Source: Thermaceae bacterium
GTDB taxonomy: Bacteria; Deinococcota; Deinococci; Deinococcales; Marinithermaceae
Direction: 5' to 3'
Length of the DNA: 5,954 nucleotides
NCBI GenBank assembly: GCA_027053145.1
Contig: JALUED010000026.1
Location: forward strand, 1-5,954
Shown: positions 1,009 through 4,183 of the stretch, piece by piece
Layout of the letters: each line of letters opens with the position of its first letter
Numbering within the stretch: position 1 is the first letter of the stretch
Program-made: the position numbers and the translations under genes
The notes under the pieces: generated by a model
Told to the model about the DNA's origin: nothing
The model's input: the letters and a program-made list of their open reading frames with translations, nothing else
Databases searched by the model: none

Positions 1009-1014
1009 ATTATA
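1009..1014 (-). promoter_or_regulatory. -10 box (TATAAT) of a leaderless promoter for the LptF/G-like gene
   Basis: The minus strand carries a perfect TATAAT followed by 7 nt (CCGGGGC) and then the GTG start. A transcript starting at the usual distance from the -10 box would begin at or next to the start codon. There is no Shine-Dalgarno sequence between them, which fits leaderless mRNA. No clear TTGACA-like -35 box is visible 16-18 bp upstream. Confidence 0.65.
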
Positions 1015-1071
1015 GGGAGGGGCCATGAGAAAACCGCCCGGTGGATTGTCCAGCGGTCTCGGGCGTTTCCG

Positions 1072-1726
1072 TCGTCATTACCGCTCGAGTCCGAACGCCC
1101 AGGCGCCGGTAATGGCGCAGCGCCGCGAGCAGAAAGCTCATCGCGCTCTCCTTTCGCTCGTCCCCCTTCACCTCCACGTAGGCCAGGCGGCTATAGGCGT
1201 CCACCGCGGCAAAGACCGCTTCGTAGCCCGCCCCAGGCGAAGCCCGGCGTCGGTCCCCGGTCACCCGGTATCCTGGCCTCGCAAACCGGGCGAGCTTCTT
1301 GGTTCCAGGTGCAGGAAGATCCCCGGCGCCTCAGCCTCGAAGCGTCTAGCGTTTAGGAGGAAGCTTGGGTTCTAAGGCGGAAAGACGATTCAACCCTTGG
1401 GCCTTGAGGATGTGCCCCACCGTGCTCTTAGAGAGACCCAGCTTGTGGACGATGCCCTGGTAGGGCCAGCGTTGTGGACGAAGCGCTTTCACCTGCTCCC
1501 TAAGCCGCTCAGGGGTGCGCCTGGGGCTGCGCCTTGGCCTTGAGCTTCGATCCAAGAGGCCTGCTTCTCCTTCCTCCCGGTAGCGCCTGAGCCCCTTGTA
1601 GGCGGTTCTTGGGCTGACGCCTTGGGTTTCGGCGGCTTCCCTAACCGGGAGGCCTTCGTGGATAAGGCGGGACACAGGGATGCGCCTTGCTTGATAGGTG
1701 CGTCGCGCGTTCTTGTGGCTGCTCAC
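1072..1726 (-). pseudogene. IS481-family transposase, frameshifted and truncated
   Basis: The start is GTG at 1726, with AGGAGGG 5 nt upstream. The first 127 codons match the IS481 N-terminus: SSHKNAR near the start, a helix-turn-helix (GLPVREAAETQGVSPRTAYK), then GEAGLLDRSSRPRRSPRRTP and a second helix-turn-helix (LGLSKSTVGHILKAQGLNRL). A TAG at 1348-1346 then stops the frame. Removing 7 nt (1342-1348) restores RFEAEAPGIFLHL. One nucleotide is then missing near 1301-1306, exactly at the codon expected for the first catalytic Asp (LHLDTKK in relatives). After that the original frame resumes with KKLARFARPGYRVTGDRRR and the integrase-core piece VFAAVDAYSRLAYVEV. Homology ends at RAVMT, just before the second catalytic Asp (TDNG). 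No complete DDE triad can be made. Two frame lesions plus the truncation mark an old, dead copy. Confidence 0.85.
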
Positions 1727-1793
1727 TGGAGCCCTCCTCTTGTGCTGAAAGCCAAGCACTCACCGGCACTTGGGTTTGGGGCTTTGGTGAACA
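1072..1793 (-). mobile_element. Truncated IS481-family insertion sequence remnant
   Basis: This stretch contains the 5' part of an IS481-type transposase gene and its short upstream leader on the minus strand. The right (5') boundary is inferred: a minus-strand TGTTCACC at 1793-1786 is a plausible element tip because IS481 ends usually begin with TGT. It was not confirmed by a partner repeat. The left boundary is where recognisable transposase sequence stops, near 1072. The distal half of the gene and the other terminal repeat are absent, so the copy cannot move by itself. It lies about 60 bp upstream of the LptF/G-like promoter. Confidence 0.6.
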
Positions 1794-2029: not shown

Positions 2030-3712
2030 TCACCCGTCGAGGACTTCAAACCCCAGGGCCTCGGCGCGCTCGACGAAGTACTGCACGTTCTCGCTTTTGA
2101 CCTCGCCCCCCAGGCTCTTCCTTTCAAACTCCTCCTCGGCGGCGAGGATCATGGTCTCGGCGAGGCAGGCGGGTACCAGGTCGGGTCCGCCGAAGTGGAG
2201 GTCGAGGGTGCTTTTGGCTTCGCCCGGGAGCCGCACCACCCCGCCCGGGATCACCCGCACCCCGGGGATCTTCCGGACCTCGGGGTGGACGTCCGGGGGG
2301 ACGCCTTCGTCGTAGATCCAGGCGCCGGGCTTTACGTGTTCGGCGCGGATCACCGGCTCGGGGTCGCTGGTGGCGGTGAAGATGAGGTCGGCCTCTTTGA
2401 GCCAAGCGTAGTCGGTGGTGGCCACGACCTCGGTTTCGGCCCCCTTTCGGGCCAGGTTCTTTTTCAGGCTCCCCGCGATCTTTTGGAGCCGCTCGGGGTC
2501 CCGGGCGATAAGGATGAGCCGGCCGAAGAGCGGTGCGATTTGGCGGGCGATGCCAAAGGCCACCACCCCGGTGGCCCCGACCACGGCGGCGGTCGCTTCC
2601 CTTGGGGTTTTGCCCTCTTCCTCGAAGCGCTTGAGGATGCGGGGGATGGCGGCCCGGACCGTGCCGGCGGTGAGGGCGCCCCCGTTCGTTACCTGGATCT
2701 CGGGGACGGCCTCTTGGACCCTTTTCCCCTTTTCGCCCACCACGCTCCAAAAGGCTCCAAGCCCAAAGACCGTGGCTCCGAGCTCGTGCGCAAGCCGGGC
2801 TCCTTGGATTGCCCGCCGGACCGCAAGCTCGGGTTTTTTCACGATCTGGTGGGGGAAGAGGGGAGCGGAGATGAGGTGGCAGCGGATTTCGCGACCGTCC
2901 TTGGTCTTCACCCCGCGGATTTCGCCGACCTTCATGGGGCGAAAGCGCTCGGCAACGCGCTCGATCCAGCTTCTTGGAATCAGGCCCCGCTCGGCCAGGG
3001 GGCGGAGCCAGCGGAACCGGGGCGACTGCCAAAGGTCCTCGAGGGTAAGAGGGTGAATCATGAAGGCGCAGACCACCGTCTTCTCGTCGGGAAGGGGAAG
3101 GGGCTCGCCGAGCTTGGGTTCGGTGCCCTCGAGGATCCGCCCCAGGTTCTCCTTGTAGCGCCAGAGGGCGAGGAGGAAGAGCGCCCAAGCAAGCCCTTTG
3201 CTCAAAGGATCAAGGGGCAGGAAGCTCGCCGCCAGAGCGAGCGCTAAAGCAAGCGAGAGCGCCGCCAGCGTGGCGTAACCGGTGGCGGCGTAGACGGCGA
3301 GGGCAAGGGCTAAGGGCACGAGCGCGTAAAGCGTGCCCAGCCCCCCCACCGAGAGCCCGGCGAGCACGCCGAGGAGCACCCCGGCGCCCCGGGCTCTGAG
3401 CGGCATCCGGGGGGCGAGGAAGGCAAAGGGGTAGAGGTGCCCAAGGTAGGCGAGGACAGCGGCGGCAAAGGTCCAGGGCGGGCCGAAGCCCGCGATCAGG
3501 TACACCGCGAGGTAGCCCTTTAGGAAGTCGGCGGCAAAAGCGGCGAGGAGGGCCCGGGCACCGAGCTTTTTGAGCGCGCTTTCAAGGCCGAGGTTGTAGG
3601 TTGAGGCAAGGAGGGGGTCCACCCCGGAAAGCTTCTTGGCGACCCAGTAGCCCACGGGCAAGGCCCCCAGGAAGTAGGCGAGGAAGAGCAGCAGCACCCC
3701 CAGCGCTTCCAT
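2030..3712 (-). CDS. Fusion of PlsY-like acyltransferase domain and long-chain acyl-ACP reductase-like domain
   Basis: The product has 560 residues. Residues 1-203 are a multi-pass membrane domain like PlsY, which moves acyl groups from acyl-phosphate to glycerol-3-phosphate. GALPVGYWVAKKLSG, DFLKGYLAVYL, LGHLYPFAF and the C-terminal KENLGRILEGTEPKLGE follow the PlsY pattern. The first PlsY motif (GSGNxGxTNxxR) is replaced by ASTYNLGLES, and the GGKG of the second by RARG. Residues about 212-560 resemble cyanobacterial acyl-ACP reductase: AFGLGAFWSV-type segment (GLGAFWSVVGEKG, 317-329), VTNGGALTAGT, nucleotide loop VVGATGVVAFGIA (377-389), DEGVPPDVHPEV, RVIPGGVVRLPGE and VPACLAET, with Cys516 at the position of the acyl-carrying cysteine of AAR. 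It probably reduces an activated fatty acyl chain to an aldehyde at the membrane. Substrate and product are inferred. ATG is chosen because AAGGTAGG lies 5 nt upstream. It follows the sms gene by 6 nt. Confidence 0.82.
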   Translation of the reverse strand: MEALGVLLLFLAYFLGALPVGYWVAKKLSGVDPLLASTYNLGLESALKKLGARALLAAFAADFLKGYLAVYLIAGFGPPWTFAAAVLAYLGHLYPFAFLAPRMPLRARGAGVLLGVLAGLSVGGLGTLYALVPLALALAVYAATGYATLAALSLALALALAASFLPLDPLSKGLAWALFLLALWRYKENLGRILEGTEPKLGEPLPLPDEKTVVCAFMIHPLTLEDLWQSPRFRWLRPLAERGLIPRSWIERVAERFRPMKVGEIRGVKTKDGREIRCHLISAPLFPHQIVKKPELAVRRAIQGARLAHELGATVFGLGAFWSVVGEKGKRVQEAVPEIQVTNGGALTAGTVRAAIPRILKRFEEEGKTPREATAAVVGATGVVAFGIARQIAPLFGRLILIARDPERLQKIAGSLKKNLARKGAETEVVATTDYAWLKEADLIFTATSDPEPVIRAEHVKPGAWIYDEGVPPDVHPEVRKIPGVRVIPGGVVRLPGEAKSTLDLHFGGPDLVPACLAETMILAAEEEFERKSLGGEVKSENVQYFVERAEALGFEVLDG

Positions 3713-3718
3713 CGGCGC

Positions 3719-4183
3719 CTACCTTACCAGGAAGCGAAGGCCTTGAAGCACCCCCGCGCTCGCCAGCGCCACCAGCACACCAGCGGTGACCACGCCGGCG
3801 GCAATTGCGGGCAGGGCGTAGCGCTTTTTCACCCCCAGTACCACCGCGAGCACGCTTCCGGTCCAGGCCCCGGTTCCTGGGAGGGGGAGGGCGACGAAGA
3901 GGAAGAGGCCGAGGGCACCGTAGCGCTGGACCTTTTCCTCCCCCTTGAGGCGGACCCGAGCCTCGAGGGCCTCCCAAAACCGCCGGAAAAAGGGGTAGCG
4001 CTCTAGGCGCGCCACAAGCTCGGGGAGGAGGAAAAGCAAGGCGGGCACCACCAACAGATTGCCGAGCACCGCCCAAAGGAGAGCCTCCCAGACCGGAAGC
4101 CCGAGCGCCACCCCGAGCGGCACGGCCCCCCGGAGCTCGACCACCGGCGCCATTGCGGCGAGGAAGACGTAGAGCTCGGCCAC
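3719..4183 (-). CDS. Small multidrug export (Sms, COG2426) family membrane protein
   Basis: This 154-residue integral membrane protein has the two conserved stretches of the COG2426/PF06695 family: MAPVVELRGAVPLG at residues 11-24 and ALPLPGTGAWTGS at 98-110. About four hydrophobic segments (roughly 5-28, 34-58, 88-117 and 122-142) surround a charged loop at 59-86 rich in Arg and Glu. The family is annotated as putative small multidrug export, but its substrate is not well established, so the transport function is only a family label. The start is GTG at 4183, with no Shine-Dalgarno sequence and a TATACT box 9 nt upstream, suggesting leaderless translation. It is the first gene of a two-gene unit. 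Its stop at 3721-3719 is 6 nt before the PlsY-reductase start, and that gene's ribosome binding site lies inside the sms 3' end, so translational coupling is likely. Confidence 0.85.
   Translation of the reverse strand: MAELYVFLAAMAPVVELRGAVPLGVALGLPVWEALLWAVLGNLLVVPALLFLLPELVARLERYPFFRRFWEALEARVRLKGEEKVQRYGALGLFLFVALPLPGTGAWTGSVLAVVLGVKKRYALPAIAAGVVTAGVLVALASAGVLQGLRFLVR

Follow-up and report, generated by a model that had tools for sequence, protein, structure and literature searches.

The 5,954-nucleotide stretch of contig JALUED010000026.1 of a Thermaceae bacterium (assembly GCA_027053145.1), referred to here as the window, carries a gene for a 560-residue protein in which a PlsY-like membrane domain is joined to a thioester reductase domain of the acyl-ACP reductase (AAR) and PigE type. 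The fusion is genuine and not an assembly join, because near-full-length homologues occur on many contigs and the structural model is confident, and it is distributed phylum-wide in Deinococcota. The best explanation as a whole, tentative and somewhat short of an even judgement, is that the protein is a membrane acyl reductase supplying the aldehyde precursor of an alkylamine. The gene and the positions on which this explanation draws are as follows, with residue numbers of the window protein.

2030..3712, minus strand: fusion gene, 560 amino acids, PlsY-like membrane domain plus AAR/PigE-type thioester reductase domain (Pfam/NCBIfam, model)
3092..3709, minus strand: PlsY-like membrane domain, residues 2-207
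3581..3583, minus strand: Glu44, where the PlsY known as aaPlsY has Thr41 (E in 247 of the 256 fusions, T in 14 of the 15 stand-alone PlsYs)
3155..3157, minus strand: Tyr186, where aaPlsY has His177 (H in 9 of the 256 fusions and in all 15 stand-alone PlsYs)
2033..3073, minus strand: thioester reductase domain, residues 214-560
2567..2578, minus strand: dinucleotide-binding loop GATG, residues 379-382 (G379, G382, and G387 in 256 of 256 fusions)
2156..2170, minus strand: catalytic ACLAE, residues 515-519 (256 of 256 fusions; Cys516 falls on the catalytic cysteine in alignments to AAR and PigE)

Residue counts refer to 256 fusions, namely 238 proteins from two homologue listings, the window protein, and 17 loci (253 distinct); two of the 240 listed proteins, being shorter than 530 amino acids, were left out. 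These sequences are not independent and form 44 clusters at 70% identity. The stand-alone PlsY set comprises 15 proteins, one from each of 15 fusion-bearing genomes: 19 regions had a second PlsY-like match, and L097, L098, L101 (divergent), and L102 (Thermus parvatiensis, 141 amino acids) were left out. aaPlsY was also compared, and the roles of its residues are those given in PMC5700162. Automatic gene calling proved unreliable in high-GC loci, L038 and L067 among them, and no claim draws on those calls.

The AlphaFold2 model of the 560-residue protein is confident (pLDDT 94.4, pTM 0.91), with residues 2-207 in the PlsY fold and residues 214-560 in the AAR fold. Residues 11-193 give a Pfam match to G3P_acyltransf (PlsY, PF02660; E 1.6e-24, 87.3 bits, with a gathering cut-off of 24.1), AAR/PigE-type reductase matches cover residues ~261-556, and the nearest solved structures by sequence are PigE (4ppm), PlsY (5xj5), and AAR (6jzu). 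The two-domain architecture put forward in a first-pass annotation is thus borne out for both halves, and the GATG loop and the ACLAE cysteine sit where that annotation had placed them. Its account of the N-terminal half holds for the PlsY topology and fold; the last PlsY motif (motif 3), said to be kept, is kept only in part, with Tyr186 in place of His177.

On curated models, the C-terminal half reaches 109.1 bits over positions 47-334 of PigE, 46.8 bits on AAR, and 34.1 bits on glutamyl-tRNA reductase. The AAR score (NCBIfam TIGR04058) is below the cut-off of 449.7, and the 850-bit cut-off of PigE (NF053554) is missed as well, the match spanning positions 47-334 alone. PigE scored above AAR in the three fusions scanned (109 vs 46.8, 88.7 vs 54.7, and 93.6 vs 36.8 bits), and by these profile scores the reductase half fits the PigE/TamH thioester reductases better than AAR. 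From the AAR-like assignment of the first-pass annotation, the fold and the inferred chemistry stand and the family does not. A better fit to another dehydrogenase family, here PigE, is formally the outcome which that annotation had named as speaking against itself, and it leaves the fold and the inferred chemistry unchanged. G379, G382, G387, and the whole ACLAE motif including Cys516 are invariant, the T of GATG is N in 234 of 256 fusions, and Arg404 is found in 253. An arginine at this position would presumably suit NADPH. The thioester-reductase active site claimed for this half is supported, and by analogy with its relatives the domain probably forms an aldehyde from an activated fatty acyl group.

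The PigE (prodigiosin) and TamH (tambjamine) reductase domain shares the catalytic Cys and the dinucleotide loop with the fusion, and PigE is the best-scoring family. In PigE and TamH, however, the reductase is joined to a class III aminotransferase, whereas the fusion has the PlsY-like membrane domain in that place; the Pfam scan of the 560-residue fusion gave no aminotransferase family among its matches. According to PMC8341465, PigE reduces a thioester to an aldehyde and then aminates that aldehyde. TamH together with TamA converts fatty acids into amines, with transaminase activity and a coupled cascade reported; for the TamH reductase domain, NADH dependence is predicted and the mechanism is proposed from sequence (PMC9594044). 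Cyanobacterial AAR (TIGR04058, PDB 6jzu) shares the fold over 322 residues, the catalytic Cys (AAR Cys294), and the dinucleotide-binding loop, but is 26% identical to the fusion and has no attached membrane domain. The protein is classed as a thioester reductase of the PigE/AAR type to which a repurposed PlsY membrane domain is attached. For aldehyde deformylating oxygenase (ADO), the partner of AAR, no match occurred in any of the six window open reading frames (ORFs) scanned with Pfam, a scan that was not aimed at ADO.

The reductase domain also exists without the PlsY-like domain, in stand-alone proteins from Clostridia named 'predicted amino acid dehydrogenase' or fatty aldehyde-generating acyl-ACP reductase. 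The stand-alone reductase at L066:4142-5269 is 33% identical to the window protein over 351 residues, and many of its relatives P0242-P0360 are named from Clostridia and are 61-66% identical to the L066 protein. Such relatives often bear the name shikimate dehydrogenase, although for the L066 protein and the more distant L054 the highest scores come from the PigE and AAR models. Two distant stand-alone reductases came from the contig scan described below, one from Bacillota (L054) and one from a Proteobacteria metagenome-assembled genome (MAG; L056). The PigE-type reductase of the latter lies, in L056:6046-18379, among ORFs which by eye resemble ketosynthases and a ketoreductase, along with an acyl carrier protein and an acyltransferase.

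The PlsY-like half differs from PlsY where glycerol-3-phosphate (G3P) would bind. It scores 61.3 bits on the PlsY equivalog model NCBIfam TIGR00023, below the cut-off of 137.2. Among the stand-alone PlsYs, S35, N37, R45, K104, S142, H177, and N180 are each present in 15 of 15, T41 in 14, and H92 in 10 (N in 5). The fusions have F (123) or Y (98) at the His177 position and H in 9 of 256, while the Thr41 position is E in 247. Ser35 is kept in 13, at a point where the alignment is ambiguous by one residue and the conserved Ser of the fusions lies one residue earlier. Ser142 is replaced by T in 121 and kept in 28, Arg45 is R in 162 and K in 55, Asn180 is kept in 231, and the Lys104 position is basic throughout (R 215, K 41). 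In the window protein, the G3P-pocket positions S35, R45, K104, N180, S142, and H177 read T, K, R, N, A, and Y. Counted over the 44 clusters, H177 occurs in 6, E at T41 in 38, G105 in 44, and H92 in 43.

In aaPlsY, Thr41 is a ligand of the acyl-phosphate carbonyl and His177 binds the 2-OH of G3P; residual activity is 0.32% for H177F, 0.03% for H177Y, 4.75% for T41A, 6.25% for R45K, and 25% for K104R (PMC5700162). Since H177 and other G3P-pocket residues are mostly replaced in the fusions, the PlsY half probably has a non-G3P role, the simplest reading being that most members no longer use G3P as acceptor. The case is best for Thermaceae and Deinococcus, because divergent members differ at the His177 and Thr41 positions: His177 is retained in L036 and L038, and Glu44 is missing from the Bacillota fusions L038, L048, and L049. 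The suggestion that the N-terminal half could serve glycerolipid acyl transfer is not supported, the G3P pocket being largely lost and an intact separate PlsY being present in the 15 fusion-bearing genomes compared.

Plain decay of the pocket is argued against by the conservation of the changed pocket itself. All 256 fusions have Asp62, Gly91, Gly109, and a basic residue 108 (numbering of the window protein); Asn189, Arg192, and Glu198 occur in 231 to 253, Arg192 in 253. The acyl-phosphate hole of aaPlsY is made of the K104-A107 backbone and the H92 side chain (PMC5700162). H92 is present in 255 and G105 in 256 of the fusions, and as part of the hole persists, binding of acyl phosphate is possible; it is uncertain because of the Thr41 to Glu exchange and the variation at Val106/Ala107. 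Taken against PlsY (PF02660, TIGR00023; PDB 5xj5-5xj8), the fusion shares the fold of residues 2-207, His92, and Gly105, and mostly also Asn180, Arg183, and Glu189. In contrast, it has Glu for Thr41, mostly Phe or Tyr for His177, a Ser35 that is lost or shifted by one, a four-residue insertion ahead of the motif 2 loop, the attached reductase, and a missed equivalog cut-off.

Among the best 120 of 648 homologues found, 119 cover at least 95% of the query; Thermus, Meiothermus, and Oceanithermus are among those named, as is one Armatimonadota MAG. In a second search, 38 of the best 120 of 630 homologues are named Deinococcus and one Deinobacterium chartae. A phylum search of 111 Deinococcota genomes found the fusion or fragments of it in 107 (best E 6e-99 or lower), part of the copies being cut by contig ends or frameshifted. 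It was not found in the other four (G076, G080, G081, and G103), which gave weak matches alone (E 1e-16 to 1e-19), as strong as those expected of stand-alone PlsY; either loss or incomplete assembly may account for this. Scanning genome contigs gave 57 loci, some of them fragments, from Thermaceae, Trueperaceae, other Deinococcota, and a few MAGs labelled Bacillota or Thermaerobacter; the scan took stretches with one of two peptide patterns, and its silence on other phyla is no evidence. MAGs of Thermus, Meiothermus, and Truepera carry the fusion. Labels such as 'Thermaceae-like' are inferred from fusion similarity. In an assembly of Thermus parvatiensis, a frameshift splits the fusion (L031:10010-11670), the PigE-like aminotransferase is interrupted, and the stand-alone PlsY is a 141-residue open frame only, owing to sequencing error or decay.

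Of the two lipids considered, alkylamine phosphoglycolipid and diol, the former follows this distribution better. Strains of T. oshimai, T. thermophilus, M. ruber, and M. taiwanensis have N-glyceroyl alkylamine phosphoglycolipid as their major phospholipid, and the major phosphoglycolipid of D. radiodurans is related to it (PMC3035268). As a chemical marker, a phosphoglycolipid bearing a third alkyl chain in amide linkage is called unambiguous for the Deinococcus-Thermus lineage (PMC3035268). T. thermophilus HB8 has an iso-heptadecanyl group as this alkyl chain (PMC3398001). According to a 2022 paper, the enzymes making the third chain were not identified (PMC9636437). The fusion distribution fits the alkylamine better than the diol, as a correlation, because the marker lipid occurs in Thermus and Meiothermus and in a related form in Deinococcus, where diols are unknown, although the usual methods would miss them (PMC3072082). 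Judged from distribution, a role of the fusion in alkylamine lipid synthesis comes close to an even prospect.

In the proposed explanation, the protein would act as a membrane-tethered fatty-acyl reductase. Cys516 of its C-terminal domain would bind an activated fatty acyl group in thioester linkage, and reduction with NAD(P)H would then yield a long-chain aldehyde. The PlsY-like domain, with its partial acyl-phosphate pocket, would hold or deliver the acyl donor at the membrane, and a separate, putative aminotransferase would aminate the aldehyde to the alkylamine of N-glyceroyl-alkylamine phosphoglycolipids. A more specific version, in which the PlsY-like pocket takes acyl phosphate from PlsX and hands the acyl group to Cys516 for NAD(P)H reduction, so starting the alkylamine branch, is doubtful. 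Acyl phosphate should be available, since PlsX (PF02504) was found in 11 of 11 fusion-bearing genomes tested. Acyl phosphate decomposes above 60 C, and channelling is discussed together with two PlsY fusions of thermophiles with a FakB-like protein (PMC5700162). The hand-over, if true, would shield the heat-labile intermediate, and a PlsY-like pocket with a reductase would be another answer to the problem of heat-labile acyl phosphate. A reversed use of the pocket, in which 1,3-bisphosphoglycerate would be the acyl phosphate and the alkylamine the acceptor, giving the N-glyceroyl amide, is highly improbable.

Several results weigh against the alkylamine explanation, among them the Glu at the Thr41 position, the variable Val106/Ala107, and the divergent copies already named. 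PlsX has no discriminating power, as it also occurs in 3 of 4 fusion-lacking genomes tested. No aminotransferase with a distribution matching the fusion was found in a PigE-profile search of 12 genomes or in the search of the 111 phylum genomes. The best PigE-like aminotransferase is present at 73% identity or more in 59 of the 111, all Thermaceae-like, with no match at E <= 1e-90 in other Deinococcota; strong matches in the 12-genome search came from Thermaceae-like genomes and two Bacillota genomes (G002 and G003; profile matches only). For this candidate, a putrescine aminotransferase model scored above PigE in 3 of 3 proteins scanned, below both cut-offs. Clustering of neighbouring genes gave no lipid head-group-like enzyme shared across families, and D. 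radiodurans is not among the best 120 of 630 homologues listed. In addition, Thermus and Meiothermus are reported to lack a novel series of phosphoglycolipids found in Deinococcus (PMC3111992), and Truepera radiovictrix has probable diols (PMC3072082).

The Thermaceae PigE-like aminotransferase was considered as a partner and dropped, as it is confined to Thermaceae-like genomes and fits putrescine aminotransferase better. Its example L075:1342-2586 (minus strand) is a class III aminotransferase between putrescine aminotransferase and PigE.

The same domain pair has been read in other ways. The first-pass annotation linked it, as a speculation, to long-chain 1,2-diols that replace glycerol; in this reading, either the aldehyde or an acyl group on which the PlsY half acts would be a step towards them. 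Thermus, Meiothermus, and probably Truepera make diols and carry the fusion, but the homologues named Deinococcus weaken the link, the diols of M. ruber are described as small amounts (PMC3035268), and the membrane of Thermomicrobium roseum is described as all diols (PMC2615216) while its megaplasmid, the only replicon searched, gave a PlsY-like match and no fusion or reductase match. The diol pathway is thus quite unlikely. On that megaplasmid (L121:315-956, minus strand), a divergent stand-alone PlsY-like ORF adjoins an ORF that by eye is like a dihydroxyacetone/fatty-acid kinase, a pair of interest for diol lipid synthesis. The database name, glycerol-3-phosphate acyltransferase, would make the protein such an acyltransferase with an attached dehydrogenase. 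A few divergent members do retain His177, yet the missed equivalog cut-off, the mostly lost G3P pocket, and the intact separate PlsY make it very unlikely.

Two further explanations, each improbable though less so, leave the reductase chemistry in place. If the PlsY half still transferred an acyl group from acyl phosphate, now to an alkylamine, to glycerate, or to a diol, with Glu44 serving as the general base, while the reductase made the partner molecule, the conservation of Asp62, Gly109, basic 108, and Glu44 (247 to 256 of 256) and of Asn189, Arg192, and Glu198 would be expected of a pocket that is altered and not decayed. Against such a bifunctional enzyme, no candidate product was traced, the residues that place G3P are mostly gone, and the Bacillota copies lack Glu44. 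Alternatively, the PlsY half may be an anchor only, with the reductase using acyl-ACP as AAR does and the aldehyde going to another end, e.g., fatty alcohols. That AAR stands alone, like the relatives of the domain in Bacillota and the Proteobacteria MAG, is in line with this, but Asp62, Gly91, Gly109, and basic 108 in all fusions and Arg192 in nearly all are unexpected for a mere anchor.

Next to the fusion gene, 6 nucleotides upstream, lies one further gene.

3719..4183, minus strand: small membrane protein of family PF06695 (Pfam 9.8e-40)

This gene and the fusion gene probably form one transcript. Of 54 loci, 20 have a PF06695 homologue upstream of the fusion and on its strand, within ~130 nucleotides in 19, and all 20 are from Thermus or Thermaceae MAGs. 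A relationship of this family to the DedA lipid scramblases would be in keeping with a lipid operon. In loci of the Trueperaceae type, the shared neighbours read by eye like replication, RNA-modification, and pilus genes. Directly downstream of the fusion gene is an IS481-type transposase remnant (window positions 1010-1759, minus strand), consisting of an HTH/leucine-zipper piece at 1346-1759 (PF13011, E 8.9e-17) and a piece in another frame at 1010-1264 (by eye).

Both folds are known, and the domain pair is already in databases under the PlsY name; among the literature matches listed, there was no published account of the fusion or of an alkylamine-forming enzyme. The name glycerol-3-phosphate acyltransferase is contradicted by the residue comparison, and because the fusions bear it, the mistake may have passed into pathway reconstructions for the phylum. 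Being phylum-wide and having an active site of the acyl-reductase kind, the fusion offers a concrete single-gene candidate for synthesis of the third chain.
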